Positions 3,483-32,219 of a stretch of DNA of 49,569 bases are shown here, piece by piece. Below the pieces are notes generated by a model that saw only the letters and a list, made by a program, of their open reading frames with translations, did not search any database and was not told the origin of the DNA. Source of the DNA: an uncultured Ignavibacteria bacterium (lineage in GTDB: Bacteria > Bacteroidota > Ignavibacteria > Kapaibacteriales > UBA2268); contig CAIOZA010000022.1 of NCBI GenBank assembly GCA_903862655.1, forward strand, positions 1 to 49,569. The letters run 5' to 3'. Made by a program: the position numbers and the translations under genes. Positions within the stretch are counted from its first letter, which is position 1. Every line of letters starts with the position of its first letter.

Positions 3483-3671
3483 TTGGAAAATCATCTAACT
3501 ACCACTCAAACTGCCCGTATCCTTGATGTAACACCATCTTGTGTACGCCAATGGATTGCAAAAGGTAAACTTCCTGCATTACGTATCGGTTCCAGATGGA
3601 ACATCAAACCTTTAGATGTAAAGGCTGTGATTAGTTATTCACCATTAGTTAAGGAGACTGCTAATGGATGA
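3483..3671 (+). CDS. Xis-like helix-turn-helix protein (excisionase family DNA-binding)
   Basis: A 62-residue protein made almost entirely of one HTH_17/MerR-like winged helix: TTTQTARILDVTPSCVRQW, then the wing KGKLPALRIGSRWNIK. This is the usual fold of phage and island excisionases and of small copy-control regulators. The start is taken as TTG at 3483 because AAAGGAG lies 6 bases before it; an in-frame GTG at 3462 would add 7 residues that encode this very Shine-Dalgarno. The stop overlaps the next gene by 8 bases, so the two are probably translated together. Likely role: excision directionality or control of the replication operon. Which of the two cannot be told from sequence. Confidence 0.78.
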   Translation: MENHLTTTQTARILDVTPSCVRQWIAKGKLPALRIGSRWNIKPLDVKAVISYSPLVKETANG

Positions 3672-3945
3672 TGCATTTAAAGCATTGATCGATGAGATTT
3701 GTGACAGAATCTCAGAAAATATACTTACTAATATGGAGAATAAGTCCCGAAAAGAAAAAGAGAACAGACCCTCCCCCATTCCTGAAAAAATGTATGAGGC
3801 AGCAAAGGTTTTATGCAAGGAACAGCATCTCATTAGTCATCCCACATTATTAAAACGACTGAAAGACGGATCAATAAGAGGTGCAAAAATCGGCAGCAAA
3901 TGGTTTATTGCCGAGAGTGAGTTACGCCGTTTACAATTACTATAG
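3664..3945 (+). CDS. Second small HTH protein (Xis-like)
   Basis: A 93-residue protein with a charged, probably helical N-terminal half (about 1-40, rich in K and E) and a C-terminal excisionase-type HTH: KVLCKEQHLISHPTLLKRL followed by the wing SIRGAKIGSKWFIAESEL. The wing resembles that of the preceding gene (RIGSRWNIK versus KIGSKWFIA), so they are probably distant paralogues. Its ATG overlaps the upstream stop and is served by aaggag 7 bases before. The N-terminal extension could be a dimerisation region. Excisionase or transcriptional control of the island are both possible. Confidence 0.72.
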   Translation: MDDAFKALIDEICDRISENILTNMENKSRKEKENRPSPIPEKMYEAAKVLCKEQHLISHPTLLKRLKDGSIRGAKIGSKWFIAESELRRLQLL

Positions 3946-3957: not shown

Positions 3958-4035
3958 ATGGAAAATAGTTCAATGCTGATAATTGCAAAAGTATCATCAA
4001 TCTCAGGAGGCAATGATAATGCAATTATCAATTAA
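3958..4035 (+). CDS. Short ORF (25 aa) overlapping the primase-helicase start
   Basis: ATG at 3958 is preceded by ataggag at a usable distance and opens a 25-codon frame (starts MENSSMLIIAKV, ends at TAA 4033-4035). The frame runs through the AGGAGG and start of the primase-helicase in a different frame and stops 17 bases inside it. This is the arrangement of a translationally coupled leader ORF, in which translation of the short peptide opens or blocks the downstream start. The peptide itself has no recognisable motif. It could also be a chance frame. Confidence 0.4.
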   Translation: MENSSMLIIAKVSSISGGNDNAIIN

Positions 4036-6541
4036 CGAAAACATCGTCAATAAAGGCGACCCAAGAACACCGGGCTGGAAGAATTCTGAGTTTACAATTG
4101 AACAGTTGATAAGCCATATTATTAAAGACGGACTTGCCTGGGGTCCCGGTATTTTGAAAGAATCTGCCGGAGGGAAAAAGCCGGCAATTTCAGATATACA
4201 AGGGGCAGTTTTACTTGGTATAGATATCGATAACTCTGTCAAAGAGAAGAATAAGGAAACAAGTAAATATGCAGAAAGATCAAAAACACTATCTGAAGGA
4301 TATTTTCCCTACCAAAGTGCTCAATCTGACTCATGGCTAAAAGCTAATGCTGCTTTTATGTATAGAACACCATCTTATACAGATGAATGGAATCGTTTTA
4401 GAATTGTCTTTCTGTTACCAAATCAAATAAGCTCTCCGGAGGAGTATTCATTAACCGCTGATAGTTTTATAAAGAAATTTGGTGGTGATCCTGCATGTAA
4501 GGATATTTCCCGTTTCTTCTATGGATGCAGGGATGCCGATTATGTTCACTTCTCTTCGGAGCCATTAAGCCAGACAATTCTTGACTCAATAATTAATTCC
4601 GGCAAAGAAGAGAATGAAGTAATAAAAGAGTACGGTTCTGATAATACTAATTTAACAATCACAGATGAGCAAGTAAGTGAAATTCTTGATTATATCCCTG
4701 GTGATTCTCTGTCTTATAATGATTGGTTTAAATGTATGTCAGCTGTTGGCAATACCTTCGACGAAGAAACAGCCATACGGCTGATTGAAAACTGGTCACC
4801 CGACAAAGATAATGGCACAGCCTATAAGATAAAGCACAGAGCTTTAAAACCGCAAATTGGTTCTTTAATTTATTATGCAAAACAGTATGGCTTTAATGCT
4901 AAGAAATTCTATAAAAAGAATTTTAAAATATCAGCGAATACAAAACTATCGCGAGCAATAAAATCACATGGAGATTTAGTTCAAAATGATGCTTTCACTG
5001 ATCTGCCTGAAGATTGCATTTTTTGGGAAGAGGTAATAGTAAATCAGAAAACAGGAACGACCACATTAAAAATCATCAAGAGCAAGTTTATAAATTATAT
5101 AAACTATCATGGTTTTTATAAATATTGGCTTGATAATAACTCCTTTACATTTGTATATTCAAAAAACAATATTGTTGTAGAAGTTGTTCCTGATAAAATT
5201 TGGGAATATCTTCAAAAGTCATTCGATAATCTACCGGAAGACATTTCTGATAATTATACCAACAAGGATCTTTGGGAAACAATCTTCCAAAAGATATATA
5301 TTTATTCAAGTAAAGACTTCTTCTCAAAATTGAAAGTTCTGGAGAATCAATTTTTAAAAGATATTGTTGGCCACGGTTTCTTCCCTTTTAAGAATGGTTA
5401 TGTTGAATCATCAGCTGATGGACCACAATTTCACAATTATGGTAATATTGATATGTGCATCTGGAAAGAACAAATGATTGACCATGATTTCAAAATTCTT
5501 TCAAGAAAAGAAGGTTCAGATACAAATAATTCTCATTTTGGCCAATTCCTGGAAAAACTTTGCTCATCAGCTGATCCTGAATATCCTCATGATCGTTCTA
5601 AACGACATTTAGATGTTGATAGATTTAAATCATTAATCACAGGTATTGGTTATCTGCTTCATTCATACAAAGATCCTACTGTGCCTAAAGCTATCATTTT
5701 TTGCGAGGAAAAAATTGCAAATGATGATGAAGCTAACGGTAGGAGTGGGAAAGGTTTAACCTCAGAGGCAATAAGCTATTTACGCCGTCGCGCTATATTG
5801 GACGGTAAAAGGGTTGATCTGCATGATCGGTTTTACTTCCAGACAATATCAATCGATACTCAGTTCATGTTTTGGGATGATACACGTAAAGGTTTTGACT
5901 TTGAAGGGTTGTTTTCGATAATGACCGAAGGACTGACTATTGAAAGGAAAGGGCAAAAGGCATTCAGATTACCCTTTTCCGAAAGTCCAAAAATATTAAT
6001 AGCCACCAATTCTGTTCTGACTAACGATTCTGATTCACACAGAGCACGTAAACATGAGATAGAATTCTCTGATTATTTTACTGCTGACTACACACCCTTT
6101 GATGAATTTGAAACAAAGTTTTTCAATCAGGGCTGGAAATTGGGAGACGATAATTGGAACAAATTTTATAATCTGATGATCTATTTCAATTGCTTTTATC
6201 TCAAAAATGGATTACTTAATTATGAACAAAAGAATCTTTCTGAGAGAAAATTGTTGGCAAAATTACCAGAAGACTTCCTTGATTTTATCGAAAAATACAA
6301 AGATATATTCACTAATGGCGGTATGATTTACCATGATCAACTGCATACTGAATTTACGACAATGCATAAAATTTACGGTCCGAATGGTAAATTAGCGAAG
6401 TCAATAAAAACCACAACTAAGTGGTTTAATGAGTATATAAAATTTAAAAAGCTGGTATTTATCGACGAACAAACTGGTGCAAATAATGAAAGAAGACGCA
6501 GATGGGTTTTTGCTGATAACCGCCCTGTATCTGTCTTTTAA
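4019..6541 (+). CDS. Primase-helicase replication protein (PriCT-2 plus SF3/D5-type helicase)
   Basis: An 840-residue protein. The N-terminal third resembles archaeo-eukaryotic-type primases: GIDID (D69 and D71, a plausible metal-binding DxD), then RFRIVFLL and a DISRFFYG segment seen in plasmid primases. Residues about 213-285 match the PriCT-2 linker (LSYNDWFKCMSAVG ... ENWSPD ... IGSLIYYAKQYGF). The C-terminal part is a D5/SF3-like ATPase with Walker A GRSGKG (574-579, K578) and Walker B FWDD (to D621). Such fusions prime and unwind DNA at the origin of phages, plasmids and satellites, so the element may replicate when excised. Start chosen: ATG 4019 with AGGAGG 8 bases upstream; an in-frame TTG at 3983 is less likely. 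The iterons upstream are the candidate origin. Confidence 0.83.
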   Translation: MQLSINENIVNKGDPRTPGWKNSEFTIEQLISHIIKDGLAWGPGILKESAGGKKPAISDIQGAVLLGIDIDNSVKEKNKETSKYAERSKTLSEGYFPYQSAQSDSWLKANAAFMYRTPSYTDEWNRFRIVFLLPNQISSPEEYSLTADSFIKKFGGDPACKDISRFFYGCRDADYVHFSSEPLSQTILDSIINSGKEENEVIKEYGSDNTNLTITDEQVSEILDYIPGDSLSYNDWFKCMSAVGNTFDEETAIRLIENWSPDKDNGTAYKIKHRALKPQIGSLIYYAKQYGFNAKKFYKKNFKISANTKLSRAIKSHGDLVQNDAFTDLPEDCIFWEEVIVNQKTGTTTLKIIKSKFINYINYHGFYKYWLDNNSFTFVYSKNNIVVEVVPDKIWEYLQKSFDNLPEDISDNYTNKDLWETIFQKIYIYSSKDFFSKLKVLENQFLKDIVGHGFFPFKNGYVESSADGPQFHNYGNIDMCIWKEQMIDHDFKILSRKEGSDTNNSHFGQFLEKLCSSADPEYPHDRSKRHLDVDRFKSLITGIGYLLHSYKDPTVPKAIIFCEEKIANDDEANGRSGKGLTSEAISYLRRRAILDGKRVDLHDRFYFQTISIDTQFMFWDDTRKGFDFEGLFSIMTEGLTIERKGQKAFRLPFSESPKILIATNSVLTNDSDSHRARKHEIEFSDYFTADYTPFDEFETKFFNQGWKLGDDNWNKFYNLMIYFNCFYLKNGLLNYEQKNLSERKLLAKLPEDFLDFIEKYKDIFTNGGMIYHDQLHTEFTTMHKIYGPNGKLAKSIKTTTKWFNEYIKFKKLVFIDEQTGANNERRRRWVFADNRPVSVF

Positions 6542-6897
6542 TATTTGCATACTCAATCAGTGATTGTGTTTAAATATGTGATTGAGTATTGATTGTTCGT
6601 CGTACATCTGCAATAGTACAAGCGTTAGACACTATTTACTCAATGAACAATCAATATTTACTATAATTGAAAATAATGAAGGATAAATACCATATTACAT
6701 ATTAAAGTATATTGCTATGACAGTAATATAGTTTTAGTGTTTTTCTTAATTATATAAACCAGAATAGGGTTTTCGATTGTGCGGGAACCATAAAAACCTC
6801 GTAACATCGCATCTATTGCTAATATTACTCACTCAATCATGAATTTTCTGTGATTGTGCACAGATTGTTCTGATTGTGTCAAAAAATTGGAGATTTT
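6542..6897. other. Non-coding stretch with GATTGTG repeats and hairpins
   Basis: No gene is seen. An 11-bp inverted repeat, atactcaatca / tgattgagtat (6549-6559 and 6579-6589), directly follows the primase-helicase stop. A second, gtattgattgttc / gaacaatcaatat (6586-6598 and 6645-6657), overlaps its right arm and matches at 12 of 13 positions. The heptamer GATTGTG occurs at 6562, 6775, 6852 and 6872, with GATTGTT at 6863, clustering just before the next start. These may be protein-binding sites or alternative folding arms acting as a terminator. The function is unknown. Confidence 0.5.
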
Positions 6898-7380
6898 ATG
6901 ATATTATTTGATGACGAATTACCAGCTATAAATACAAATGACAGTAATAATTTGCTAGAAGTGTCACATTCTGATGCAACTATAAACACAATACCAAAAG
7001 ATGATATTGTTGAAATAAAAACTTCAAATATTAAACTTGAATCTGATATCATTACAAATGATAATCTTACTTCTTGTGAAAAGATTGAAAATGCAGAAAT
7101 CATAAGTTCGGAAGTAAAGCAAACCTCAATGGATAGATTCGATTTAGAAATTCTTAAATTTATAAATGAAATATCGGATTCAGAATATCAATACTTCCGG
7201 TTGAATGATACAATACTCAAAGTTAATCGAAACATGGAATTGGATTTAGGAATATTGCAAGATAAAGCCGCGAATGAGATAAATAATGCCTTCTTTGAGA
7301 CTCATATTGACCAAATAAAGGCGAAAATTAAACTTGTCCAGGATAATTATCAGTTAAAAGAACCTGAACCTGATGATTAA
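6898..7380 (+). CDS. Acidic protein of unknown function
   Basis: A 160-residue protein with no recognised family. The start is the ATG at 6898 behind ttggag; an in-frame TTG at 6874 would add 8 residues. The first half is low-complexity and rich in D, N, E, S, T and I, probably disordered. The second half (from about residue 75) alternates charged and hydrophobic residues in a way that suggests helices (FDLEILKFINEISDSEYQYF, and a helix ending KIKLVQDNYQL). There is no signal peptide, membrane segment or Cys motif. It follows the replication gene on the same strand, so an accessory role in replication or mobility is possible but only positional. Confidence 0.6.
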   Translation: MILFDDELPAINTNDSNNLLEVSHSDATINTIPKDDIVEIKTSNIKLESDIITNDNLTSCEKIENAEIISSEVKQTSMDRFDLEILKFINEISDSEYQYFRLNDTILKVNRNMELDLGILQDKAANEINNAFFETHIDQIKAKIKLVQDNYQLKEPEPDD

Positions 7381-7520
7381 GAAACTCTAACTTGTTGATC
7401 TATATAAGGAAAATAGACTAACTCTTGATAATTTGTTTAATTCTATCGAAAAATTGGATAATGTGTAACATATATGAGCCTATTTGAGCTAATATGCGTC
7501 ATTTCACGTATCTGCTTGTT

Positions 7521-7612
7521 ATATAACGGCTTATCTCCATCTTGTTGCTCGCATCTCAACTTGTGTTGCCCGTATCTCATTGCTATATCACGGCTTATCC
7601 CATCTCATTGCT
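7521..7612 (+). repeat. Degenerate direct repeat, 64-bp spacing
   Basis: A segment of about 28 bp, atatMacggcttatc followed by ccatct and ttgct, occurs at 7521-7549 and again at 7585-7612 with a few mismatches. Short words such as atctca and ttgct recur between them. The origin and role are unknown. Confidence 0.45.
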
Positions 7613-7789
7613 AATCTGCTTGTGTTATTCCTGTTTCCCGAGCTTATGTTATGCTTGCAGTTTGCCAGTTACATAAAGGATACTCTGTTTTACCGTACCC
7701 TTTGCCGATTACATATCTTCTCCCCGAATCCAAATCAATCAATCCTCTCCTCACTAATCGCTCCTCACTAATCACTAGAGAACATGGTG

Positions 7790-7960
7790 CTCGCTTCGCT
7801 CGCTCGTCGGCTCCCGTCCGTCCGAGGCGGGGGCGAAGACGCCCCGCCGTCCGGTCGCCTTCTCTTTTTATTTAACCCGAAACCGCATTGGTCGTAAGCC
7901 TCGCTTCGCTCGTCTCCTCCGTCGAGGCTCCGTCGGTCTCCCAATTGCGGTTCGGGAGGA
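7790..7960. other. GC-rich, highly structured block (possible ncRNA or DNA site)
   Basis: This is by eye the most GC-rich stretch of the window. A 9-bp stem with one bulge occupies 7826-7848 (ggcgggggcg, loop aaga, cgccccgcc). An outer imperfect 16-bp inverted repeat joins 7876-7891 (cccgaaaccgcattgg) to 7941-7956 (ccaattgcggttcggg), and within it agcctcg (7897-7903) pairs with cgaggct (7923-7929). Words built on cgcttcgctcg recur at about 7792 and 7902. The nested pairing suggests a folded RNA or a recombination or transfer site. No Rfam family was recognised by eye. Confidence 0.45.
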
Positions 7961-8607
7961 AATCAGTTCCGTTTGCCTGCCTGCGGTCGCAAGCTCCCTT
8001 GTTCGGCTCACGTGAGAAAAGCAGTTTCGGAAGTAAGATCGAGGTAAGATGAGTAAGATGGAATATGGTGTTCGCAAGCTCACTTCGATATTGTGCCGGC
8101 AAATCAATGCAATCAGGAAAGTGGAGTGAAGCACAGATATTATAACCCACCCTTCATTCTTTCAAAAATACAAATACAGCTCGCTAAGCAAATACACGAC
8201 GTCGAAGCAAATACAAAACAAGCATTTCGGTGTGTAGTCGTGGCGTGGCTTCCTGTGCAGAGATACTGAATACAAAAATGTGCGCACAGGTGAATACACA
8301 CGCCCCGACTTCACGAACTTATTTAGCCCCACCCACAAACCGCCCTCAGTAAAACCTAAAACCAAATACAGAATGTGGCTCGCTCTGCCGATGAATCGTC
8401 AGCCGTCCTACGTCCTGCGTCCGGTAATCTCTATGTTCTTTATTCAGAATCGGGTGAATATTAGTTATACGTAATAATAAAAATAAATGTGATTAGAATA
8501 ATAAAATATTTTGTTAATTTTGTATATATTAATTGAGAGTAAGTAAAGAAATGAGTTAAAGACAAGCTTAAAAAAGTGTTTCGATTCAATTTTTATCTTG
8601 ACAGGGT

Positions 8608-9672
8608 ATGCAAACTAGAAAACAATTAGTTGAATTGATTCTTGAGAATCAGGAACTGGCTGCAAAAATATTGGTTGCTCACCAAGAACTGACTGACGAA
8701 TTAATCAATGCAAAAAAAGAAATCTTATTTCTAAACAAGGAGAAAGAAGAACAAGTTACAAACTTAATCCTCGCTAATAAAATAATGTCAGAGGAGTTAG
8801 TTTTAGCACACCAAGAGCTTGACTTTCAAAACATAGAGAAAGAAAAACGGGCAGCTGAGCTGGTGATTGCCAATAATGAACTTGTATTTCAGAACGAAGA
8901 GAAAGCTAAACGTGCTGCAGAGTTAATCACTGCCAATCAAGAACTTGCCTTTCAGAATGGTGAAAAAGTAAAGCGAGCTAAAGAATTAGAAAATGTGAAT
9001 AGAGATCTTGAACAATTTGCTTATGTTGCCTCACACGACCTTCAGGAACCGTTGCGCATGATTTCGAGCTACACCCAATTGCTCGAACGTAAATACAAAG
9101 ATAAATTAGACCAGGATGCAAACGATTATATCCATTTTGCGGTAGATGGTGCAATTCGCATGCAAAAACTCCTTATCAATTTACTTGATTTTTCGCGGGT
9201 AAGTACTCGCTCTAAGAGTTTTGAACAAGTTGACACTAAAACAATTGCCGGGCAGGCTATTTCAAATCTTCAGCAATTGATACTTGAGAATACTGCCTTG
9301 ATAACCAACTATGACTTGCCGGTTATTCAAGCCGATGAAATGCAGATTTTACAGGTATTTCAAAATCTTATTGAAAATGCCATTAAGTTTAAAAAGAAAG
9401 CAGAATTGCCCAAAATACATATCACTTGTTCAAGGCAGCACAATATGTATCAGTTTTCGATAGCAGATAACGGAATAGGAATCGAAATGCAATATCACGA
9501 CAGGGTTTTTATTGTCTTTCAGCGTTTACATTCAACAAAAGATTACCCCGGAACCGGCATCGGGCTGTCTATTTGCAAACGCATAATAGAACGGCATGGA
9601 GGAACTATCTGGTTTGAATCAGAAGTAAACGAAGGGACTACTTTTTATTTTACAATACCAGTATCAACCTAA
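8608..9672 (+). CDS. Cytosolic histidine kinase, phytochrome-type transmitter with coiled-coil repeats
   Basis: A 354-residue protein with no signal peptide or membrane segment. Residues 1-130 are a long coiled coil built from about 22-residue repeats (variants of EKAKRAAELITANQELAFQN). The HisKA box follows with H143 in SHDLQEPLRM, then the ATPase domain: N box FQNLIENAIKF (N253, N257), G1 DNGIGIE and G2 GTGIGLS. It has no PAS or GAF sensor, so input must come through the coiled coil or a partner. The next gene, 15 bases on, is an Rcp1-like receiver, the usual partner of this transmitter class. Its kinase half is very close to that of the kinase at 14864-16315, also in DNA, which points to recent duplication. 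It is the first gene of the signalling operon. Confidence 0.9.
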   Translation: MQTRKQLVELILENQELAAKILVAHQELTDELINAKKEILFLNKEKEEQVTNLILANKIMSEELVLAHQELDFQNIEKEKRAAELVIANNELVFQNEEKAKRAAELITANQELAFQNGEKVKRAKELENVNRDLEQFAYVASHDLQEPLRMISSYTQLLERKYKDKLDQDANDYIHFAVDGAIRMQKLLINLLDFSRVSTRSKSFEQVDTKTIAGQAISNLQQLILENTALITNYDLPVIQADEMQILQVFQNLIENAIKFKKKAELPKIHITCSRQHNMYQFSIADNGIGIEMQYHDRVFIVFQRLHSTKDYPGTGIGLSICKRIIERHGGTIWFESEVNEGTTFYFTIPVST

Positions 9673-9687: not shown

Positions 9688-10134
9688 ATGGAAAACCTGA
9701 AATCAGTTGAAATTCTTTTAATAGAAGACAATCCGGGCGATGCACGGCTCACCCAGGAAGCATTAAAAGACGGAAAGGTGAGAAACATCCTACATATTGT
9801 GTATGACGGAGAAGAGGCAACCGATTTTCTTTTCAAAAGAAATCAATACAAAAATGCCTCCCGACCCGACCTTATCATTCTCGACCTTAATTTGCCAAAA
9901 AAGAACGGACAGGAAGTGCTCGCCGAAATTAAAGCAGATGATAACCTGAGAAGCATTCCTGTAATTATTCTTACCATATCCAAACAGGAAGAGGATATTA
10001 TAAGGTCGTATAATTTGCATGCAAATTGCTTTTTAATCAAGCCAATTGACTTGAATCAATTCTTTGAAGTGATAAAATCAATTGAGGATTTTTGGCTCAC
10101 ATTAGTTAAACTTCCAAATCATGAACAAATTTAA
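9688..10134 (+). CDS. Rcp1-like single-domain response regulator
   Basis: A 148-residue stand-alone receiver: acidic pair E13-D14 (LLIEDNPGD), phospho-acceptor D66 in LIILDLNLPKKNG, and K118 in LIKPID. The NPGD and LPKKNG segments and the C-terminal FWLTLVKLP are characteristic of the Rcp1 group, which receives phosphate from phytochrome-type kinases. There is no output domain, so it acts as a phosphate shuttle or by protein contact. It follows the kinase by 15 bases and overlaps the next gene by 14 bases, indicating translational coupling. Confidence 0.9.
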   Translation: MENLKSVEILLIEDNPGDARLTQEALKDGKVRNILHIVYDGEEATDFLFKRNQYKNASRPDLIILDLNLPKKNGQEVLAEIKADDNLRSIPVIILTISKQEEDIIRSYNLHANCFLIKPIDLNQFFEVIKSIEDFWLTLVKLPNHEQI

Positions 10135-12349
10135 TATTAAGGTTAAGATCCGTTTATCCCTTTTACTCGTGTTTGTAGTCATGATGTTGGTTACAATATA
10201 TTTATTCCTGCAAATGAAAGTCATTGGAGAAAAAACACGTCTCTTATACGAACATCCTTATCAAGTGAGCAATACCGTAAAAGAAATTACATCCGATATT
10301 ATACTGAATCAAAACTATGTCAGAAATATCAGATTATGTGATAACTATCGCCAACTCGACAGCATTAAAGGTGAAATTGATCAAAGAGATAAAGTCATAC
10401 GGGAGAATTTCAAAATTGTTTTGCAGAAATTCCTGGGCCCCAATGCCTTGGCTAACAGCACATTTTTCGCCTACTCTGAATTGAAAAACATGGGTGACAA
10501 ATTCTATCAGCTCAAAAAGGAAAACAAAACAGACAGCATTCAAATACTTTTAAATTCTGATGCCCGGGTCAAATTTGATAAAACAATATTACTCTTAACT
10601 AAAATCTCTGATTTTGCAGACAACAAAGCTAACACCATGTTTAAAAATGTTATTGAAACTGAAAACAATGCAACACGGTTAACAATGATCCTCATCATAA
10701 TTGCGGGACTGCTTATTCTATTCTTTAACTGGTTCCTTACGCGAAGCATTATAAACCCTATAAAAAACTTTGTAAGCGAAGCAAACATTTTGTTGAAAAA
10801 AGATGAAAAAGTACTGATTACTGCTGACGAACATGTAATGACTCAAACCCTTGCTGAATTAAAAAATGCCTACCTGAGAATCGAAAGGCAAAGCAGTGAA
10901 ATTGAGCTCCAGAAAATTCACCTTGCCGGAATAAACCTTGAACTTGAAGACAAAGTGAAGCAGCGAACATCCGAATTATTCAGTGCCAATCAAGAACTTG
11001 CAATTCAGTATGAATTTTCGCGGTATTTGGCTTTCATCGTGGAATCGTCAGATGATGCAATTATCAGCAAATCGCTGGATGGAAATATCAGGAGTTGGAA
11101 CCTGGCTGCCGAAAAAATGTTTGGATACACCGCAGAAGAGGCAATTGGAGAAAACATTTCCCTGATAATTCCCGCGGATTACATCAATGATGAAAAAGCT
11201 ATTCTTGACAAGTTACAGAAAGGCGAAATCATTGAAAATTACGAAACAACACGCATTAGAAAAAACAGCGAACAGTTTCATGTTTCGCTTACTGTTTCTC
11301 CAATTAGAAATTCTGAAGGAAAAATTACAGGAGTTTCTAAAATAATACGCGACATTACCAGGAAAAATGAAATGGTGGAAGAACTCAATAAGCAAAACAG
11401 CATGATTAATACTCTTCTCGCAAACCTGCAGATAGGGGTTTACATGATTGAAGTGCCCTCTGGGATACCACTTCTGGCAAATGAGTCATCTTTCAACTTA
11501 CTTGGGAGGGGTATTCTTCCCGAAGCAAACTCCGGCACCATTGCAAAAGTGTATGATTTATACAAGACTGGCACAGACATCCCATATCCTAATGAGGAGT
11601 TGCCTCTGATAGTAGCAATGAGCGGCGTGTCGAAACATGTAGATGACATGGAAGTTAAGAAACCTGATGGAACAAGAACAGCATTGGAAGTATTCGGTTC
11701 ACCCATCCGGGACAATAGTGGTAATATTTGGGCAAGTCTTGTTAGTTTTCAGGACATCACCGATCGTAAGCAGGCTGAACAGGCATTGAAAAAGAGCGAG
11801 GATTTCCTTTTCCGTACCGGCGAAATAGCAAGAGTTGGCGGCTGGGAAATGGATCTTGATCAAAATAAAGCAATTTGGACCCGAACGGCTGCTGAGATAC
11901 ACGAGTTGCCAGGCACTTCTGAGATAGACCTTGATAAGGCTTTCAACTATTTTCATCCTGATGATAAACAAGCTGTAAGAAATTATGTTGATGCTGCGAT
12001 TAAAGCTGGCGAATCGTTCGAATACGAAGCCAGATTAGTAACAGCTAAAGGTAACGAGCGCTGGATCCGGTCTATTGGTGTCCCTGTCCTTGTTTCAGGA
12101 AAGTGTCATTTTGTTTCCGGCATTGTGCATGATATCACCGAGCGTAAGCAGGTCGAAGAGGAAATTAAAACCAAAGTTACGGAACTCGAACGATTTAACC
12201 GCTTGTCGGTTGGAAGAGAATTGCGGGTTATAGAACTCAAGCAAAAAATCAACGATCTCTCTTCTCAGCTTAAACTGCCACAACCTTATGCAATGGATTA
12301 TTTAAAATCACCAGAGGATATTCCTGATATTGGGAAAAAAGACAATTAA
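10121..12349 (+). CDS. Membrane PAS sensor without a kinase domain, upstream of kaiC
   Basis: A 742-residue protein. TM1 is at about 12-31, an extracytoplasmic helical domain with a 4-helix-bundle chemoreceptor look at 32-185, and TM2 at about 188-207, followed by a HAMP-like TRSIINPIKNF segment and a coiled coil. Three PAS domains follow at about 300-416, 430-550 and 560-676, each ending in the DITxRK linker seen in PAS-kinase chains. No HisKA or ATPase domain follows; the protein ends with a short helix, VGRELRVIELKQKINDL. kaiC starts 30 bases downstream, so the likely role is to pass a membrane signal to KaiC or to a kinase in trans. The gene overlaps the receiver gene before it by 14 bases. 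Confidence 0.82.
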   Translation: MNKFNIKVKIRLSLLLVFVVMMLVTIYLFLQMKVIGEKTRLLYEHPYQVSNTVKEITSDIILNQNYVRNIRLCDNYRQLDSIKGEIDQRDKVIRENFKIVLQKFLGPNALANSTFFAYSELKNMGDKFYQLKKENKTDSIQILLNSDARVKFDKTILLLTKISDFADNKANTMFKNVIETENNATRLTMILIIIAGLLILFFNWFLTRSIINPIKNFVSEANILLKKDEKVLITADEHVMTQTLAELKNAYLRIERQSSEIELQKIHLAGINLELEDKVKQRTSELFSANQELAIQYEFSRYLAFIVESSDDAIISKSLDGNIRSWNLAAEKMFGYTAEEAIGENISLIIPADYINDEKAILDKLQKGEIIENYETTRIRKNSEQFHVSLTVSPIRNSEGKITGVSKIIRDITRKNEMVEELNKQNSMINTLLANLQIGVYMIEVPSGIPLLANESSFNLLGRGILPEANSGTIAKVYDLYKTGTDIPYPNEELPLIVAMSGVSKHVDDMEVKKPDGTRTALEVFGSPIRDNSGNIWASLVSFQDITDRKQAEQALKKSEDFLFRTGEIARVGGWEMDLDQNKAIWTRTAAEIHELPGTSEIDLDKAFNYFHPDDKQAVRNYVDAAIKAGESFEYEARLVTAKGNERWIRSIGVPVLVSGKCHFVSGIVHDITERKQVEEEIKTKVTELERFNRLSVGRELRVIELKQKINDLSSQLKLPQPYAMDYLKSPEDIPDIGKKDN

Positions 12350-12379
12350 CTTTTTGTGAAAAAAACAGGAGGACACAAC

Positions 12380-14107
12380 ATGAGTAAAAATAAAATGCAG
12401 GTACAAACCCAAAGCCTTCCTAAATCACCAACGGGTATCAAGGGTCTTGACGAAATCACAGGTGGAGGATTACCAAAAGGCAGACCTACTCTTGTTTGTG
12501 GTAATGCGGGATGCGGAAAAACGCTGTTAGCAATGGAGTTTCTTGTCAGGGGTGCAATTGAGTTCAACGAACCTGGCGTTTTCATGGCATTCGAGGAAAC
12601 GGAAAATGAATTGACTACAAATGTCGCATCGCTGGGTTTCAATCTGGAAGATCTTACAGAGAAAAAAATGATCCTGATTGAACATGTCCATATAGAAAGA
12701 AGCGAAATAGAGGAGGCAGGTGAATATGATTTGGAAGGATTGCTAATCCGGATAAACTTTGCCATCGACAGCATAGGTGCAAAGCGCGTTGTTCTGGATA
12801 CAATAGAATCACTTTTCGGAGGGCTTCCCAATGTTCTTATACTTCGTGCTGAGCTCCGCCGTCTGTTCCGTTTCCTGAAAGAGAAAGGCGTCACAGTAAT
12901 AATTACAGGAGAACGCGGTGATGAAATGCTCACACGTCAGGGATTGGAAGAGTATGTATCCGATTGCGTCATTGTGCTCGACCATAGGGTTACGGAACAG
13001 GCATCAACACGGCGGTTACGTATTGTCAAGTATCGCGGTTCATCCCACGGCACCAATGAGTATCCTTTCCTGATTGATGAAACCGGTTTTTCGGTACTCC
13101 CAATCACATCAGTAGGACTTACGCATACTGTTTCTACAGAAAGGATATCGAGTGGCATTCCGCGACTCGATACCATGCTGAGCGGTAAGGGATACTTCCG
13201 GGGCAGCAGCATACTCGCTTCCGGAACAGCCGGTACAGGTAAAAGCAGTCTCGCAGCACATTTAACCTTCGCTGCCTGTAAGCGGAAAGAGCGTGTGCTC
13301 TATTTTGCACTTGAAGAATCGCCATCGCAGATTATCCGTAATATGCGTTCCATAGGGATTAACCAGGAACAATGGGTAAAAAGTGGATTGCTGAGATTTC
13401 ATTCGAACCGTCCTACGTTTATTGGTCTGGAATCGTATCTGACTATGATACATAAAGCCATACTTGATTTTAAACCTGAGGTGGTAATTGTTGATCCGAT
13501 CAGTAGTTTTATTGTCGGCGCTAACGAATTTGAAGCCAAATCAATGATAATGAGGCTGGTTGACTTTCTTAAAATGAATAATATCACCGGTTTCTTTACT
13601 GCTTTGACCGGAGTTGGTTCCGAGATGGAGGGCTTAAAAGTAAATGTTTCATCGCTGATTGATACCTGGTTGCTATTGCGAGATATTGAAATCGGAGGCG
13701 AACGCAACCGGGGATTGTACATTCTTAAGTCGCGCGGTATGGCACACTCAAATCAGATACGCGAGTTTATACTGACCGATCATGGGGTTGAACTGCGCGA
13801 TGTTTATGTCGGTCCCGACGGAGTCCTTACAGGTTCAGCAAGAACAGCAAAGGAAGCTGTTGAAGATTCAGAAAAATTATTAAGGAAGCAGGAAATAGAA
13901 CGTAAACAGCTTGCACTTGAACGTAAACGGAAAGCGTTGGATTACAAAATCAAGGAATTACAGGATGAATTTGAAGCAGAATCACTGGAAGCCCTCAAAG
14001 CTATCAGCATTGATACAGAGCTAAGTAAGAATTTTTTACAGCTGCAAAGGGATCAGGCAGTTAGCAGAAAAGCTGATACTGATCAAAAACACACCAGCTT
14101 AAAATAA
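12380..14107 (+). CDS. kaiC: KaiC-family double-RecA ATPase
   Basis: A 575-residue KaiC with tandem CI and CII domains. Walker A motifs are GNAGCGKT (41-48) and GTAGTGKS (282-289); the paired glutamates expected at the ATPase/kinase centres are E72-E73 and E312-E313. The CII segment NVSSLIDTW places S424-S425 where cyanobacterial KaiC has its phosphorylated S431 and T432, so autophosphorylation is possible, though a Leu seems to replace T426. Instead of the cyanobacterial A-loop tail it ends in a highly charged coiled coil (about 490-565). Start: ATG 12380 with AGGAGG 7 bases upstream; an in-frame GTG at 12356 would encode that Shine-Dalgarno. Two kaiB genes follow. No kaiA is seen, as in non-cyanobacterial Kai systems. 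Confidence 0.92.
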
Positions 14108-14132
14108 TTTTTATAAAAAAGAAGGAGCAAAA

Positions 14133-14471
14133 ATGAAAACAACAAAGGGAAAAGCCGCAATAAGTAATCACCGGGATAATCCTGCAATACCCAATGAAGA
14201 ATGGATATTGAGATTGTATGTTGCTGGTCAGTCGCCTAAATCAATAACTGCTTTTCAAAATCTCAAAACTATTTGCGAGGGACAATTGAATGGCCGGTAT
14301 ACGATTGAGGTAATTGACCTTTTAATAAATCCGCAATTGGGTAAGGATGACCAGATTCTCGCCATCCCTACTTTAATCCGAAAATTCCCCGAACCGGTAA
14401 AGAAGATCATTGGCGATCTATCAAATACCGACAGGGTACTTATTGGATTAGATCTGTTACCAAGATTTTAA
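14133..14471 (+). CDS. kaiB: KaiB-family protein, copy 1
   Basis: A 112-residue protein with a complete KaiB domain: [37 protein letters not shown] and [18 protein letters not shown]. KaiB is a fold-switching thioredoxin-like protein that binds the CI ring of KaiC. Of the prolines important in the switch region, the first and those flanking the central position are kept (PTL and PEP, where cyanobacteria have PPP). An extra polar N-terminal segment of about 24 residues precedes the domain. It lies 25 bases after kaiC with aaggagc before its ATG, and shares an operon with the second copy. Confidence 0.93.
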
Positions 14472-14492
14472 TAATTAATAATATGTTGTGTG

Positions 14493-14840
14493 ATGAAAAA
14501 GAAAATTCCGGAAATAGTAAACTCCACCGATCAATTTGAATTAACAGTAGAGGGTTCGGGCAGTGAGAAATACGTCCTGAGATTATATATTGCAGGTATG
14601 ACACCAAAATCTGTCCATGCAATTTCAAATATAAAAAAAATCTGTGAGGAATATCTTAATGGACGATATGATCTTGAAGTGATAGACCTTTATCAAACAC
14701 CACAGTTAGCCAAAGGAGAACAGATAATTGCTGCACCAACACTAATTAAAAAACTTCCCTTTCCCTTACGTCGGATAATAGGCGACATGTCGAGCACCGA
14801 ACGCGTACTTGTTGGGCTTGATTTACGGGAAAGAAAGTAA
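14493..14840 (+). CDS. kaiB: KaiB-family protein, copy 2
   Basis: A 115-residue paralogue of the preceding Kai[63 protein letters not shown]. The switch region reads PFP in place of PPP or PEP. The two copies are clearly diverged (QTPQL versus INPQL; GDMSS versus GDLSN), so this is an old duplication or two acquisitions, and the proteins may bind different partners or the two KaiC rings. Start: ATG 14493, although GTG 14490 directly before it is possible. It ends 23 bases before the next histidine kinase. Confidence 0.93.
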
Positions 14841-14863: not shown

Positions 14864-16315
14864 ATGATCAATTCAATGGAAAAGAAAAATATACCGCTTA
14901 CTGAAAATCAGCTGCTTCTTGAAAACGAAGAGTTGCGTCAGCGCGTGTATGAATATGAAGAAACTTTAAATTCAATACGCAACGGAGAAATAGATGCAAT
15001 TGTTGTATCGGGAGTTGATGGAGAAAAAATTTATTCCCTTACTTCCGCTGAAACCATGTACCGTATCATTATTGAAGAAATGAATGAAGGTGCCATCACT
15101 ACCTCCAGCGATGGATTGATTACGTATTGCAATGCCAGGTTTGCCGAACTTATTTCTGAACCCACAGAAACATTGGTGGGCTCCTATTTTATAAATTATC
15201 TTCAGAAAAGTGAACAACCGGTATTCTTGGATTTACTTCAATCGGGTTTGAAAGGAAAGATTATAGGCCAGATAATATATAAATTAAATAGCGGACATTC
15301 TTTAGAACTTAAACTTTCTATAAGTCCTATTCCTGCTGATATACAAAATGGAGTATGCATTTTGTTTTCTGATATTACGCAGTTGAAACAACAAGAAAAA
15401 GAGTTACTGCTTTTCAATAGCAGGTTAGATCATGAAATATTAGAAAAAACTAAAGATTTAGCAAGAACCAATCAGGAGTTAAAAACCCTGCATATTGTCT
15501 CCATGAGCATGATGGAGGATGCAGTGGAAGCAAGAACTGCCCTTGAAATTACAAATGCAAATCTGCAAAAGGAAATTATTGAGCGCAAGCAAGTGGAAGA
15601 AAATTTAATTATCACATTGCACAACCTCGAACTCTCCAACAAAGACCTGGAACAATTTGCATATGTGGCTAACCACGACCTTCAGGAACCTTTGCGCATG
15701 ATTTCGAGCTATACCCAATTGCTCGAGCGTAAATACAAAGATAAATTAGACCAGGATGCAACCGATTATATTCATTTTGCGGTGAATGGAGCAATACGCA
15801 TGCAAAAACTGCTCAATGATTTATTGGAATTCTCGAAAATTAATAGCCATGCAAAAATGAATGTGCAGGTCGACATGTCAACTCCTTTGGGGCAGGCTAT
15901 TTCCAATCTTCAGCAATTGATAGCTGAGAACAATGCCTTGATAACCAACGATGATTTACCGGTTATAACAGCCGATGAAGCTCAGATTATGCGGTTCTTT
16001 CAAAACCTTATTGAAAATGCGATCAAATTTAAAAAGAAAACGGAATTGCCGAAAATACATATATCTTGTATAAGGCAGCAAGACATGTATCAGTTTTCAG
16101 TAGCAGATAATGGAATAGGAATGGAAATGCAATATCACGACAGGGTTTTTATCGTTTTTCAACGTCTGCATTCAGTAAAGGATTACCCCGGAACCGGTAT
16201 AGGATTATCAATATGCAAACGCATAGTAGAGCGGCATGGAGGAACTATTTGGTTTGAATCAGTCGTAAACCAAGGTACTACTTTTTATTTTACAATACCA
16301 GTAAAAACTTCCTAA
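14864..16315 (+). CDS. PAS histidine kinase, phytochrome-type transmitter
   Basis: A 483-residue soluble kinase. An N-terminal coiled coil (about 10-35) and the segment SIRNGEIDAIVV precede a PAS domain (about 65-180), then a long coiled coil (180-255). The HisKA box has H271 in NHDLQEPLRM and the ATPase domain runs to the end (FQNLIENAIKF, DNGIGME, GTGIGLS). Its last 220 residues are nearly identical to those of the kinase at 8608-9672, while the N-terminal halves are unrelated. So the two share a transmitter and presumably receiver partners but sense different inputs. The gene follows kaiB copy 2 by 23 bases and precedes a hybrid kinase by 2 bases. An in-frame ATG at 14876 is an alternative start. 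Confidence 0.9.
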   Translation: MINSMEKKNIPLTENQLLLENEELRQRVYEYEETLNSIRNGEIDAIVVSGVDGEKIYSLTSAETMYRIIIEEMNEGAITTSSDGLITYCNARFAELISEPTETLVGSYFINYLQKSEQPVFLDLLQSGLKGKIIGQIIYKLNSGHSLELKLSISPIPADIQNGVCILFSDITQLKQQEKELLLFNSRLDHEILEKTKDLARTNQELKTLHIVSMSMMEDAVEARTALEITNANLQKEIIERKQVEENLIITLHNLELSNKDLEQFAYVANHDLQEPLRMISSYTQLLERKYKDKLDQDATDYIHFAVNGAIRMQKLLNDLLEFSKINSHAKMNVQVDMSTPLGQAISNLQQLIAENNALITNDDLPVITADEAQIMRFFQNLIENAIKFKKKTELPKIHISCIRQQDMYQFSVADNGIGMEMQYHDRVFIVFQRLHSVKDYPGTGIGLSICKRIVERHGGTIWFESVVNQGTTFYFTIPVKTS

Positions 16316-16317: not shown

Positions 16318-19300
16318 ATGAAAAATACCGAAGAAAAAACAATCCTGCTGATTGAGGATAATCCAGGTGATAGTAGGTTAATTAAAGAGATGCTGAAAGA
16401 AATTACTTCCAGTAATTATCAGCTGGTTGTTGCTGAAACCCTGAAAGAAGGATGCGGGCAAATCAGGAAGCATAAATTTATGCTGATTCTCCTCGACCTC
16501 AATTTGCCCGACAGCACAGGAAAATCAACTTTCGATACCGTAATGAAATTTGCCGGGAATATTCCTGTTGTTTTAGTTAGTGGGTTGGAACATAAGGAAT
16601 TATCATTATTGCTTATTAAAGAAGGGGCTCAGGATTATATATTAAAACAGGATTGTAACAGCAGTCTTCTTGGTAAAACCATTCAATATGCGCTAATACG
16701 CAAGAATACGGAAGTTGAATTGCAAGAAAGCAAACAGAAATATCAAAACCTGTTCCACAAAGCAAACGAAGGGCTCATCCTTATGACAATGGATGGAAAA
16801 TTTGCCGAAGTAAATCAGTCATTTGCACAGATGCACGGTTATTCAGTTAAGGAGATCAATAACATGGACATTAAAGAGCTGGATGTGCTCAGGGAAGATA
16901 CATTTGATAGTCGTGCTGAAATTATGAATCGCATACTTGCCGGCGAAATAGTACGCTTTGAGGTAGAGCATTACCATAAGGATGGACACAGCTTTTTTTT
17001 GAGCACCTCAGCAAGTCTAATTACTATTGAAAACCAGCAGTATTTCCTTGCATTTCATCAGGATATTACAGAACGCAAGCAGGCAGAAGAGGCGTTAAGG
17101 ATTAAGAACCAGGTGTTTGAAGACTCGATAGCTGCTATGAGCATCTCAGACATTACGGGAACGATTACCCATGTCAATCAGGCTTTCTTGCGCTTGTGGG
17201 GATATAACAGTAAGGAGCAGGTAATCGGCAACAGTATCGGCTTATTCTTCAACGATCATGCCGATTCGGTTCTGGTGCTCGAAGCTCTAACCTCTAATGA
17301 TGAATGGGAAGGCGAATTTCTTGCAAAACGGGCTGATGGTACAACCTTTATCTCGCATGGAATTGCGACAAGTCTGCGCAACACCCGGGGCGAGCATATT
17401 GGATACCAGTCCACCAACCTGGACATAACCAAGGAGGCGGAGGCGGTGCAGGCGCTGAAAGAGAGCGAGCGCGACCTCGAGAAAAGGAACATTTTCATAA
17501 ACACAATCCTGGAGAACCTGACATTCGGTATCGCTGTCAACTTTATGGATTCAGGTTTGACCGAATACGTCAACCCCGCCTACAGCAGGGTATATGGATG
17601 GCCAGCGGAGGACATGAAGGACATAGAGAGTTTCTTCAAGCATATCTATCCCGACCCGGTTTACAGTGCGCAACAGATGAAGATGGTGATGGAGGATATA
17701 AATAGCGGGTATCCCGAACGCATGCACTGGGAGGGTTTCATGATAACGACCAAAACCGGCGAGAAACGTTTCTTAGAAGCCAGAAACATACCGCTGCCCG
17801 ACCAGAATCTCATGATATCCATTGCATGGGACATCACTGAACGCAAGCAGGCAGAAGAAGCAAAAAGGGCAAGCGAAGAGCTTTTCAAGCATGTTTTTGA
17901 AGATGCCAATGTGGGTAAATCGATCATTACGCCAGGCGGAGAGATTAAAGTAAACAAAGCTTTCTGCAATTTATTGGGCTACCAATACGAAGAACTTCAA
18001 AATAAAAACCAAAAAGACATAACGCATCCCGACGATATTGAACTTACGCAAAACGAAATGAACAAGCTCATCAATGACGAAGCTCAACAGGTGCGATTCA
18101 ACAAAAGATATCTTCATAAAAATGGCTCCATCATATGGGCAGATGTTAGTTCATCATCCATGCGAGACAAGACGGGCGAGCTTAAAAACTTAATAACAAC
18201 CATTATTGACATCACCGAACGAAAAAAGGCGGAAAAAGCGCTGCAAGCATCTAAGGATTTTCTGGATAAGATTATTAACTCCGTAGCTTCACCTATTTTC
18301 GTCAAAGACGATCTTCATAGATTTTGTTTGGTAAACGATGCGTTATATTCGCTTCTTAACCTTCCGGTTGAAAAACTTATTGGCACTACAGGATATGAAT
18401 ATTTCCCTGAAGAACAAATGAAGATATTCATTGCAAAAGATCAGAAAGTATTTTTATCGGGCATAGAAAATATTAATGAGGAACAACTTACCGATGGAAC
18501 CGGTAAAGTCAGGTATATTATTACCCGGAAAACCTTATATACCGATACGGCAGGCAAAAAATTTCTTGTTGGGGTTATAAGTGATATTACCGAACGCAAA
18601 CATGCGGAAGAAGCATTAAATGAACTTAATTTGAGTCTGGAACATATTATAGCCGAACGTACAGAACAATTAGAAATCACTAACAAAGAACTCGAATCAT
18701 TTGCCTATTCAGTTTCTCATGATCTAAGAGCACCATTAAGAGGTATTGACGGGTTTTCAAAAATTTTACTCGAGGACTATTCAGATGTCCTTGATCATGA
18801 AGGTCATAGGCTATTGAACGTTATTATCACAAATATTCAAAAGATGAGTCAGCTAATTGAAGATTTACTTAATTTTTCCAGAATTAGCCGTCAAGATATT
18901 AAACGATATAAAATTGATATGAAAAATCTTTTCAGCAGTTGTTATTTCGAACTTACTACCGATGAGCAAAGAGATAAAATTATATTTGATCTGGATGTTG
19001 TTCCTGAATCATTTGGAGATCCAGCTTTGATAAAGCAATTGATTACTAATCTACTTTCAAATGCCATAAAGTTTTCATCAAAAACAGCAAATCCGTCTAT
19101 TATCATAGGATATAATGTTGACAACAAGAAAGTTATCTTTTTTATCAGGGATAATGGAGTAGGTTTTGATATGAAATACTATGATAAGCTTTTTGGAGTA
19201 TTTCAAAGGCTTCATAGCAATGTTGAATATGAAGGTACAGGTGTTGGACTAGCAATCGCTCAAAGAATTATCAACAGGCATGGAGGTAATATTTGGGCTG

Positions 19301-19344
19301 AATCTGTTTTAAATGAAGGTGCAACATTTTATTTTTCTTTATAA
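16318..19344 (+). CDS. REC-(PAS)5-histidine kinase
   Basis: A 1008-residue soluble protein. The N-terminal receiver has E13-D14 and phospho-acceptor D60 (LLDLNLPDSTG). Five PAS domains follow at about 141-252, 263-374, 388-514, 521-637 and 643-764, most ending in DITERK. HisKA has H801 in SHDLRAPLRG, then the ATPase domain with FQRLHSNVEYEGTGVGL, again of the phytochrome type. A receiver at the N-terminus means the kinase is itself a phosphorelay target. By eye, base composition is uneven: the third PAS (about 17390-17850) is GC-rich and the kinase part (from about 18640) is AT-rich, as if modules of different origin were joined. It directly follows the PAS kinase with a 2-base gap. Confidence 0.9.
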   Translation: MKNTEEKTILLIEDNPGDSRLIKEMLKEITSSNYQLVVAETLKEGCGQIRKHKFMLILLDLNLPDSTGKSTFDTVMKFAGNIPVVLVSGLEHKELSLLLIKEGAQDYILKQDCNSSLLGKTIQYALIRKNTEVELQESKQKYQNLFHKANEGLILMTMDGKFAEVNQSFAQMHGYSVKEINNMDIKELDVLREDTFDSRAEIMNRILAGEIVRFEVEHYHKDGHSFFLSTSASLITIENQQYFLAFHQDITERKQAEEALRIKNQVFEDSIAAMSISDITGTITHVNQAFLRLWGYNSKEQVIGNSIGLFFNDHADSVLVLEALTSNDEWEGEFLAKRADGTTFISHGIATSLRNTRGEHIGYQSTNLDITKEAEAVQALKESERDLEKRNIFINTILENLTFGIAVNFMDSGLTEYVNPAYSRVYGWPAEDMKDIESFFKHIYPDPVYSAQQMKMVMEDINSGYPERMHWEGFMITTKTGEKRFLEARNIPLPDQNLMISIAWDITERKQAEEAKRASEELFKHVFEDANVGKSIITPGGEIKVNKAFCNLLGYQYEELQNKNQKDITHPDDIELTQNEMNKLINDEAQQVRFNKRYLHKNGSIIWADVSSSSMRDKTGELKNLITTIIDITERKKAEKALQASKDFLDKIINSVASPIFVKDDLHRFCLVNDALYSLLNLPVEKLIGTTGYEYFPEEQMKIFIAKDQKVFLSGIENINEEQLTDGTGKVRYIITRKTLYTDTAGKKFLVGVISDITERKHAEEALNELNLSLEHIIAERTEQLEITNKELESFAYSVSHDLRAPLRGIDGFSKILLEDYSDVLDHEGHRLLNVIITNIQKMSQLIEDLLNFSRISRQDIKRYKIDMKNLFSSCYFELTTDEQRDKIIFDLDVVPESFGDPALIKQLITNLLSNAIKFSSKTANPSIIIGYNVDNKKVIFFIRDNGVGFDMKYYDKLFGVFQRLHSNVEYEGTGVGLAIAQRIINRHGGNIWAESVLNEGATFYFSL

Positions 19345-19377: not shown

Positions 19378-19815
19378 ATGAACGGTAATACATTAGATAT
19401 TCTTCTTGTAGAAGATAACCCAAATGATGCTGAATTAGCATTGAGAGCTTTGAAAAAAAGCGGGGTTGCAAACAACATATACGTTGCTATCGATGGCGAA
19501 CAGGCTTTGGATTTTTTGTATTGCAGGAACCAATATTCTAATAATGATCCTAATAATCCCCCAAAACTAATACTATTGGATTTGAAACTACCCAAAATTG
19601 ACGGGCTGGAAGTTTTAAAAACAATTAAGGAAGACCCTAATAAAAAGACAATACCGGTCATTATTTTGACGTCCTCCATTCTAGAAAAGGATATGGTGGC
19701 AAGTTATCAATATGGAGTTAATAGTTACATTCAAAAGCCGGTTGATTTCAATCAATTTGTTGAAGCCGTAAATCAAATTGGATTATATTGGTTATTATTG
19801 AATAAATTACCCTAA
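19378..19815 (+). CDS. Rcp1-like single-domain response regulator, second copy
   Basis: A 145-residue stand-alone receiver: E12-D13 in LLVEDNPND, phospho-acceptor D68 in LILLDLKLPKIDG, and the KP pair in YIQKPVDF. The tail GLYWLLLNKLP is the Rcp1 signature. It follows the REC-PAS-kinase by 33 bases, repeating the kinase-then-Rcp1 order seen at 8608-10134, so it is the likely acceptor of that kinase. There is no output domain. It is only moderately similar to the first copy at 9688-10134. Confidence 0.9.
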   Translation: MNGNTLDILLVEDNPNDAELALRALKKSGVANNIYVAIDGEQALDFLYCRNQYSNNDPNNPPKLILLDLKLPKIDGLEVLKTIKEDPNKKTIPVIILTSSILEKDMVASYQYGVNSYIQKPVDFNQFVEAVNQIGLYWLLLNKLP

Positions 19816-19882
19816 AGAACATTCTATGAATTGCCGATTATATTTCTATTATTAGTTCCTAAATTAAATACTGGTGAATATT

Positions 19883-23185: not shown

Positions 23186-23255
23186 TAAAGTACCGATAAT
23201 TATCATATAATGTTGTTAAATTGATTCTGGCAACAAATGTCAGGAGATGCAGATA

Positions 23256-32204: not shown

Positions 32205-32219
32205 TGCTCCCTGAGGGAC
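32201..32219. repeat. Right attachment site (attR core) within tRNA-Lys
   Basis: Exact copy of 1026-1044. It covers the discriminator base, the 3' strand of the acceptor stem and part of the T stem of the tRNA, plus 4 bases of flank. Because the tRNA is complete, integration has preserved its function. Confidence 0.82.

Follow-up and report, generated by a model that had tools for sequence, protein, structure and literature searches.

A tRNA-Lys-integrated element with KaiC, two KaiB types, and a predicted KaiBC partner kinase in an uncultured Ignavibacteria bacterium

We analyzed a 49,569-nucleotide stretch of DNA from an uncultured Ignavibacteria bacterium (Kapaibacteriales, UBA2268; assembly GCA_903862655.1, contig CAIOZA010000022.1), which is one whole contig and is called the window below. 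It carries genes for the clock-type proteins KaiC and KaiB in an element that is integrated at a tRNA-Lys gene and that also encodes kinases and response regulators. Two kaiB genes follow kaiC, and a gene for a predicted partner kinase follows them. With modest confidence, we read the element of about 31 kb as a signaling cassette built on a KaiA-less KaiBC timer, in which KaiB or the KaiBC complex would deliver its output to the partner.

The integrative element spans positions 1026 to 32219 (about 31.2 kb). We place its ends there because a repeat containing the tRNA-Lys 3' end recurs beside the integrase. It is an exact 19-bp direct repeat, with a left attachment (att) copy at 1026 to 1044 and an identical right copy at 32201 to 32219. 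The right copy overlaps the 3' end of tRNA-Lys (CTT) on the minus strand (32204 to 32278), which is the integration site and the only tRNA found in the window by ARAGORN. Allowing up to two mismatches, the repeat occurs twice in the window and never in 100 shuffles. A tyrosine integrase of 491 amino acids (1240 to 2715, plus strand; PF00589, E = 5.8e-14) starts 195 bases past the left copy. It is followed by a small helix-turn-helix protein (3664 to 3945, plus strand; PF12728, E = 7e-4, under the curated cutoff), which is a putative excisionase by position. Next is a protein that we tentatively name primase/helicase-like (3983 to 6541, plus strand; PF19263, E = 1.9e-6, just above the cutoff). 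Relatives of nearly full length and 39 to 42% identity to it occur in genome G032. The signaling genes come after it. A first-pass annotation, made from the letters of the window, had placed the KaiBC genes in an island. The tRNA-Lys repeat and the integrase do bound such an island, and it is larger than had been proposed.

The same genome contains a sibling element on contig C21 (45421 to 71818). The 3' end of a tRNA-Arg recurs there as an 18-bp repeat at 45421 and 71801, 26.4 kb apart. It encodes an integrase at one end and, by eye, helix-turn-helix-like proteins. Its primase matches the protein at 3983 to 6541 at 31% identity in the second half only. By eye, its cargo is a type I restriction-modification system and further nuclease-like genes.

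KaiC is encoded at 12356 to 14107 on the plus strand. It contains 583 amino acids with two PF06745 stretches (whole-protein E = 1.1e-102) and a C-terminal coiled-coil tail. Its best match in the PDB was KaiC of Rhodobacter sphaeroides (8DBA; E = 5.1e-195). Residues 21 to 556 of 583 align to that chain, coiled-coil tail included, up to residue 537 of 568. Walker A motifs lie at residues 49 and 290, and EE pairs lie at 80-81 and 320-321. The phosphorylation pair is Ser432-Ser433. It aligns with the SS site that reads EE in the phosphomimetic structure 8FWI. The protein passed the NCBIfam cutoff for NF006799 (731.7 bits; cutoff, 408) and fell below that for TIGR02655 (360.6 bits; cutoff, 546.25). 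By its domains, SS pair, and C-terminal extension, it is of the KaiC2 or R. sphaeroides type. A motif check found it intact for the predicted ATPase and KaiB-binding capacities. KaiA (PF07688) was not found in the genome (4.07 Mb, a 98% complete assembly); the control was positive in Synechococcus elongatus alone of 14.

The Ser-Ser pair is the KaiC2 pattern, described from cyanobacterial KaiC2 (PMC5520375). The R. sphaeroides KaiBC system (PDB 8DBA, 8FWI, and 8FWJ) has been called an hourglass that takes a cue from the ATP-to-ADP ratio (PMC10076222).

The first KaiB is encoded at 14133 to 14471 (plus strand; PF07689, E = 9.9e-26, 89.7 bits) and the second at 14490 to 14840 (plus strand; PF07689, E = 2.1e-26, 91.9 bits); the cutoff for both is 27 bits. 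Both scored below the NCBIfam equivalog cutoffs, with 106.9 and 104.1 bits for NF006798 (cutoff, 110) and 99.3 and 99.7 bits for TIGR02654 (cutoff, 145.3). We compared 112 distinct KaiC loci (117 minus five duplicates). Downstream of KaiC, 57 have two KaiBs, 1 has three, 28 have one, and 26 have none; several of the loci with one or none end near KaiC. Of the 26, two carry a KaiB upstream instead. In a quick tree of 145 KaiBs over 105 columns, which are few for that number of rows, one branch (length, 0.69; support, 100 by the Shimodaira-Hasegawa-like approximate likelihood ratio test [SH-aLRT]) parts all 57 first copies from all 57 second copies. The split spans Bacteroidota, Pseudomonadota, Chloroflexota, Nitrospirota, Planctomycetota, Methanoperedens archaea, and others. 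Single KaiBs fall on both sides (16 on the first and 12 on the second). Most of the common KaiB core is kept in both types. In S. elongatus numbering, column 7 is W in 49/57 first copies and Y in 52/57 second copies, column 41 is I in 54 versus L in 57, column 47 is L in 49/57 versus Y in 49/57, and column 66 is R in 55 versus K in 52. Judged by this tree, the two KaiBs are old, position-sorted paralogues.

One archaeal locus (L146) has three KaiBs in a row between KaiC (10001 to 11680) and the partner (13012). Two are of the first type and one is of the second. At loci L072 and L073, from two genomes of family f27, KaiB precedes KaiC. The KaiCs of these loci are distant (38% and 37%) and sit on a very long branch.

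The gene downstream of the second KaiB (14864 to 16315, plus strand) is, by its conservation, the partner of the module. By Pfam and alignments, it encodes an N-terminal coiled coil with a GEVDALVV signature, a PAS domain, and a HisKA-type histidine kinase. The signature covers 57 residues (14903 to 15073, plus strand; E = 3.0e-27 against alignment A4, which includes the window's own row). A same-strand gene of at least 100 amino acids lies directly downstream at 55 of the 58 loci that have two or three KaiBs. L105 ends at a contig edge, and L131 and L136 were missed by the gene rule and found by the signature model. All 55 downstream proteins have a PAS match and align over the N-terminal signature; L140 and L146 do so in part, with the called start inside the motif. 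Alignment A4 has 57 residues and 32 of the 55 rows. The motif follows the coiled coil and reads roughly AIRxGEVDALVVxGxxGxQxxTLxxAExxYR. Outside the coiled coil, G28, D31, and Y53 (A4 numbering) are invariant.

The part after the motif and PAS domain differs between the proteins. HATPase was found in 33 of the 55 proteins, REC in 12, GGDEF in 3, EAL in 3, a sigma-54 activator in 1, and HD in 1. Fifteen of the proteins are short (232 to 242 amino acids). At L136 (2597 to 5332), a single frame of 911 amino acids fuses a second-type KaiB straight to the signature and then to PAS.

The signature matched 28 of 390 Bacteroidota genomes at an E value of ≤1e-6, once in each; several of these genomes had supplied rows to the alignment. 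All 28 matches are on the strand of KaiC and 394 to 892 bases downstream of it. At an E value of ≤1e-4, it matched 1 of 60 relatives. This was the window's own genome, with a single match. Pfam had no match over residues 14 to 64 of the window's partner. Among 25 of 82 NCBIfam matches listed, the signature-spanning NF038297 reached 87 bits against a cutoff of 725. The best 60 of 64 PDB matches to the partner fall short of the signature region. At least 1.5 kb of downstream sequence is available at 101 of the 112 loci. Of these, 65 have a second-type KaiB and 36 do not; the partner is present in 64 of the former and in 6 of the latter. The kaiC-kaiB-kaiB-partner order was also seen at 4977 to 9031 of locus L201, on plasmid p3 of Pararhizobium qamdonense (conjugative by PLSDB).

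We propose that these parts would work as follows. KaiC would autophosphorylate at Ser432 and Ser433. It would drift between states over hours, like R. sphaeroides KaiC, and would read the ATP/ADP balance. One KaiB paralogue would serve the KaiC ring and speed its reset. The other KaiB, or a KaiBC complex that holds it, would engage the coiled-coil and GEVDALVV region of the partner and alter its kinase activity. The partner, perhaps with its near-copy HK1 (8608 to 9672), would pass phosphate to the response regulators RR1 and RR2 and to hybrid kinases. From there, we infer, the signal would reach a cellular target.

Several results weigh against this explanation. A test of KaiB type versus partner in independent pairs was not significant, and few evolutionary changes lie behind the counts. 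L067 lacks the partner, and its KaiB is closer to the second type. At L065, L069, L070, L133, and L145, the partner accompanies a KaiB typed as first; at L086, it stands without any called KaiB. The typing of several single KaiBs is weak (score differences, 0 to 14 bits). KaiC was found in 13 plasmid records, of which five were examined. Four of these, all alphaproteobacterial, have the signature and a single KaiB with a score closer to the first type: R. sphaeroides (pB), Rhizobium sp. BG4, Sinorhizobium sp. B11, and Falsirhodobacter. The signature genes on these plasmids are annotated as kinases; in Sinorhizobium, a PAS protein is followed by an overlapping kinase gene. The partner therefore does not depend on a second KaiB. 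AlphaFold models of the two KaiBs had low confidence (mean predicted local distance difference test score [pLDDT], 58.9 and 56.0). We had sought a fold difference between the types in models from class alignments of 44 rows each. Their pLDDT was too low and they were not used.

Further results bear on the mobility of the element. A Pfam scan of 18 element proteins found no relaxase, type IV secretion, or transfer genes among them; RR2 and the hybrid kinase at 19874 were identified with custom-built models instead. An empty site was not demonstrated in relatives, where the neighborhood is not conserved enough. Matches to the left-flank gene (PHP-type by eye) occur in 2 of 59 other relatives; for the right-flank peptidase, the count is 58 of 59. 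No tRNA was detected by ARAGORN around the former, in 2 longer stretches, or at the latter, in 19 short loci. An integrative element was demonstrated at none of the other KaiBC loci examined. A model from the window's integrase found no integrase near them, and it is a single-sequence model too weak to count. The PF00589 matches listed for 20 genomes share one contig with 22 KaiC places. It is from Methanoperedens, with 16 kb between the two, and it has a tRNA-Pro without a repeat of at least 12 bp within 39.8 kb. In genome G313, none of seven integrase matches is on the 262-kb KaiC contig. At locus L074, the two end pieces of the 37.7-kb contig, read by eye, showed no integrase; they do contain an IS110-like transposase. 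The integrative element is thus demonstrated for the window alone.

The same proteins may serve as a stress or metabolic-state switch. KaiBC would then be an on/off device that is gated by ATP/ADP and feeds the kinases, with elapsed time unused. The lack of a KaiA match fits this reading. So do the tie of the R. sphaeroides hourglass to the ATP-to-ADP ratio (PMC10076222) and the link of Legionella pneumophila KaiC2 to the stress response (PMC5520375). We have no direct evidence against it. We consider it possible, if somewhat doubtful. The switch and the timer differ only in use, so our confidence in one overlaps with that in the other.

A second alternative accepts the element as real and takes the two KaiBs as redundant. 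The signature would be a coiled-coil spacer that dimerizes the PAS kinase, and the signal would go from KaiC to the kinase directly. The window's KaiBs are 59% identical, and R. sphaeroides and the three other plasmid loci do with one KaiB and a signature-bearing gene. However, the position sorting of the KaiBs holds over several phyla with near-fixed differences. The spacer reading must likewise contend with the invariant residues beyond the coiled coil and with a signature that, in the genomes searched, was found nowhere but next to KaiC. We find this alternative unlikely.

A self-sustained circadian clock with light input would account for the KaiB and KaiC motifs and for the many PAS domains, and the PAS protein upstream of KaiC weakly matches blue-light receptor families (32.7 bits against cutoffs of 450 and 250). 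Against this, no KaiA was found, the closest studied KaiC is an hourglass (PMC10076222), and no photoreceptor family was above its cutoff among the matches listed for the scanned proteins; such a clock is very improbable. An antiphage or other element-borne defense module is hardly credible: the sibling element with its related primase carries a type I restriction system by eye, but PADLOC on 9 window proteins gave partial hits to two (mad8 on KaiC, E = 4e-12, a short P-loop; Cas3-type and PDC-M60B on the HDOD regulator, with P-loop, HD, and REC as the parts hit), and KaiC was found in no phage records (E ≤ 1e-30) and confirmed in no viral contigs.

Having set out these alternatives, we return to the timer cassette and its origin. 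A KaiC match at an E value of ≤1e-60 was found in none of 59 other genomes of the family or order, and the window's genome has one. At ≤1e-80, 42 of 395 genomes of the phylum sample have a match, the window's own included. The nearest named relatives among the best 80, a list that may leave out the window's own genome, are in a Bacteroidales metagenome-assembled genome (MAG) (82%) and a Bacteroidetes MAG (76%). They are followed by Chloroflexota, Pseudomonadota, and Thermodesulfobacteriota (70 to 72%). In a quick tree of 112 KaiCs with SH-aLRT support only, the window groups with L074 and L075 (98) and then with L038 of G313 (97). The 12 remaining genomes of the same class and the second copy of G313 are in a separate 33-row clade (100), of which 24 rows have no KaiB and 9 have one. 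The lack of a match in the 59 genomes and the grouping apart from most KaiCs of the same class point to a probable foreign origin of KaiC in this genome. The first-pass annotation had suggested that the cluster may be movable. The 59 genomes without a KaiC match and the att repeats agree with it, and the cluster is not fixed in relatives.

Many KaiCs of the KaiB-less clade (L039, L043, L046 to L048, L093, L101, L104, and others) are in Ignavibacteria-named genomes. Several adjoin a response regulator of about 230 amino acids. Neither KaiB nor the partner motif is nearby.

The module is part of an array of 15 plus-strand genes from 8608 to 31714, with intergenic gaps of -20 to 61 bases. All 15 read as signal transduction genes. 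They encode KaiC and the KaiBs, kinases, hybrid kinases, REC, HDOD, and HD regulators, and a phosphonate-type sensor kinase. HK1 (8608 to 9672, plus strand) is a histidine kinase (HisKA and HATPase_c) without a recognized sensor domain. RR1 (9688 to 10134, plus strand; PF00072) is a single-domain response regulator, as is RR2 (19378 to 19815, plus strand; REC by a custom-built model), and the two are 50% identical. A REC-PAS-histidine kinase (16318 to 19344, plus strand; Pfam) follows the partner. RR2 is followed by a hybrid kinase with REC-PAS-HATPase-REC (19874 to 23185, plus strand; custom-built models) and a REC-PAS-HATPase protein with a weak GAF match (23247 to 25382, plus strand; Pfam). 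Next are a REC-HDOD response regulator (25427 to 26695, plus strand; Pfam), a REC-histidine kinase (26688 to 27779, plus strand; Pfam), and a REC-HD response regulator (27793 to 28950, plus strand; PF13487, E = 6.5e-32). The last gene encodes a phosphonate-binding-type sensor with PAS and histidine kinase domains (28931 to 31714, plus strand; PF12974, E = 1e-38, and HATPase_c).

HK1 shares 66% identity with the partner kinase over 307 residues. Their DNA has stretches of 198 and 300 nucleotides at 86% and 85% identity. This likeness suggests a fairly recent copy across the PAS-KaiC-KaiB-KaiB block, with HK1 and the partner on its opposite sides. At the start of HK1 (8698 to 8959), there are four coiled-coil-like repeat copies 63 to 96 bases apart, and one more is at 10973 in the PAS protein. 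L074, the closest relative with KaiC and two KaiBs, keeps the order of KaiC, KaiB, KaiB, partner, response regulator (56% identical to RR2), and hybrid kinase. By eye, the ends of its contig encode giant PAS kinases, for one of which the frame spans at least 2445 amino acids, and a CheB/CheR-like PAS protein in addition to the IS110-like transposase.

A membrane PAS protein of 742 amino acids is encoded directly upstream of KaiC (10121 to 12349, plus strand). It matches several PAS models, has 4HB_MCP just above the cutoff, and has no kinase match. Hydrophobic peaks lie near residues 6 to 36 and 183 to 211. The first-pass annotation had named this protein, KaiC, the two KaiBs, and kinases on both sides (8608 to 9672; 14864 to 16315 and 16318 to 19344), and all are where it put them. 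It had also taken the membrane PAS protein as the candidate sensor and suggested looking for the PAS-kaiC-kaiB-kaiB-kinase order in other genomes. The kaiC-kaiB-kaiB-PAS partner part of that order recurs; the upstream membrane PAS protein was found in the window only among the neighborhoods compared. A model of its first 295 residues, built from one sequence, matched none of 36 other neighborhoods and nothing in the surroundings of 80 loci. A role as conserved input is thus not borne out. Because the N-terminal model matches the window alone, we regard the protein as a local addition, and it may be an input to the kinases. Of the 58 loci with more than one KaiB, 20 (the window among them) have a same-strand gene of at least 100 amino acids immediately before KaiC.

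KaiC-KaiB-kinase clusters, kaiCBB, and mobile KaiBC have already been published. The R. sphaeroides KaiBC genes share with the window the SS sites and coiled-coil tail of KaiC, the kaiC-kaiB-kinase order, and the signature in the kinase (E = 5.3e-18). They differ from the window in having one KaiB rather than two types, an HWE-type rather than a HisKA kinase, and a location on a plasmid rather than in a tRNA-integrated element. Rhodopseudomonas palustris has kaiC-kaiB with a PAS histidine kinase downstream, with one kaiB described; it is likened to the window by its gene order and its PAS kinase (PMC4794148). 'Thiodictyon syntrophicum' has kaiCBB, in which KaiC is followed by two KaiBs and adjoined by a signaling gene. 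The genes are named there, and the available text gives no analysis of the two KaiBs (PMC5944118). In non-cyanobacterial kaiC-kaiB clusters, a kinase or a GGDEF/EAL protein lies directly downstream of kaiC or kaiB in almost all cases, as reported in a paper on Ramlibacter (PMC3164672). The N-terminal consensus in that paper belongs to another kinase group, which goes with KaiC without KaiB, and its available part has no two-type KaiB split (PMC3164672). IMEMsp.CA2 of Mesorhizobium also carries KaiBC on an integrative element (PMC9973854). It is likened to the window by gene content, and it differs in its traACD mobilization locus, heat shock genes, and phylum (PMC9973854). A Bacteroidetes group with only KaiB2- and KaiC2-like proteins has been described (PMC5520375). 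Neither a division of KaiB into two types nor the partner motif turned up in the literature searched; most subscription papers were outside it, and we do not claim absence.

In a broader form, which we hold tentatively, non-cyanobacterial KaiBC may be a portable cassette of four parts. These would be KaiC, a ring-serving KaiB, an output KaiB, and a partner domain that replaces SasA and CikA. Its outputs would be exchangeable among kinases, cyclic-di-GMP enzymes, sigma-54 activators, and bare PAS proteins. It would move between phyla and, as here, on integrative elements.

To our knowledge, the signal output of KaiBC outside cyanobacteria is an open question. The 57-residue region, found nowhere but near KaiC in the 390 Bacteroidota genomes, with its several kinds of output and one fusion to KaiB, makes this question directly testable. 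With two KaiB types conserved, a single KaiB may not have to perform both roles. A timer and a phosphorelay in a tRNA-integrated element suggest that timing may be gained in a single step. The main value of the finding is a testable output domain.

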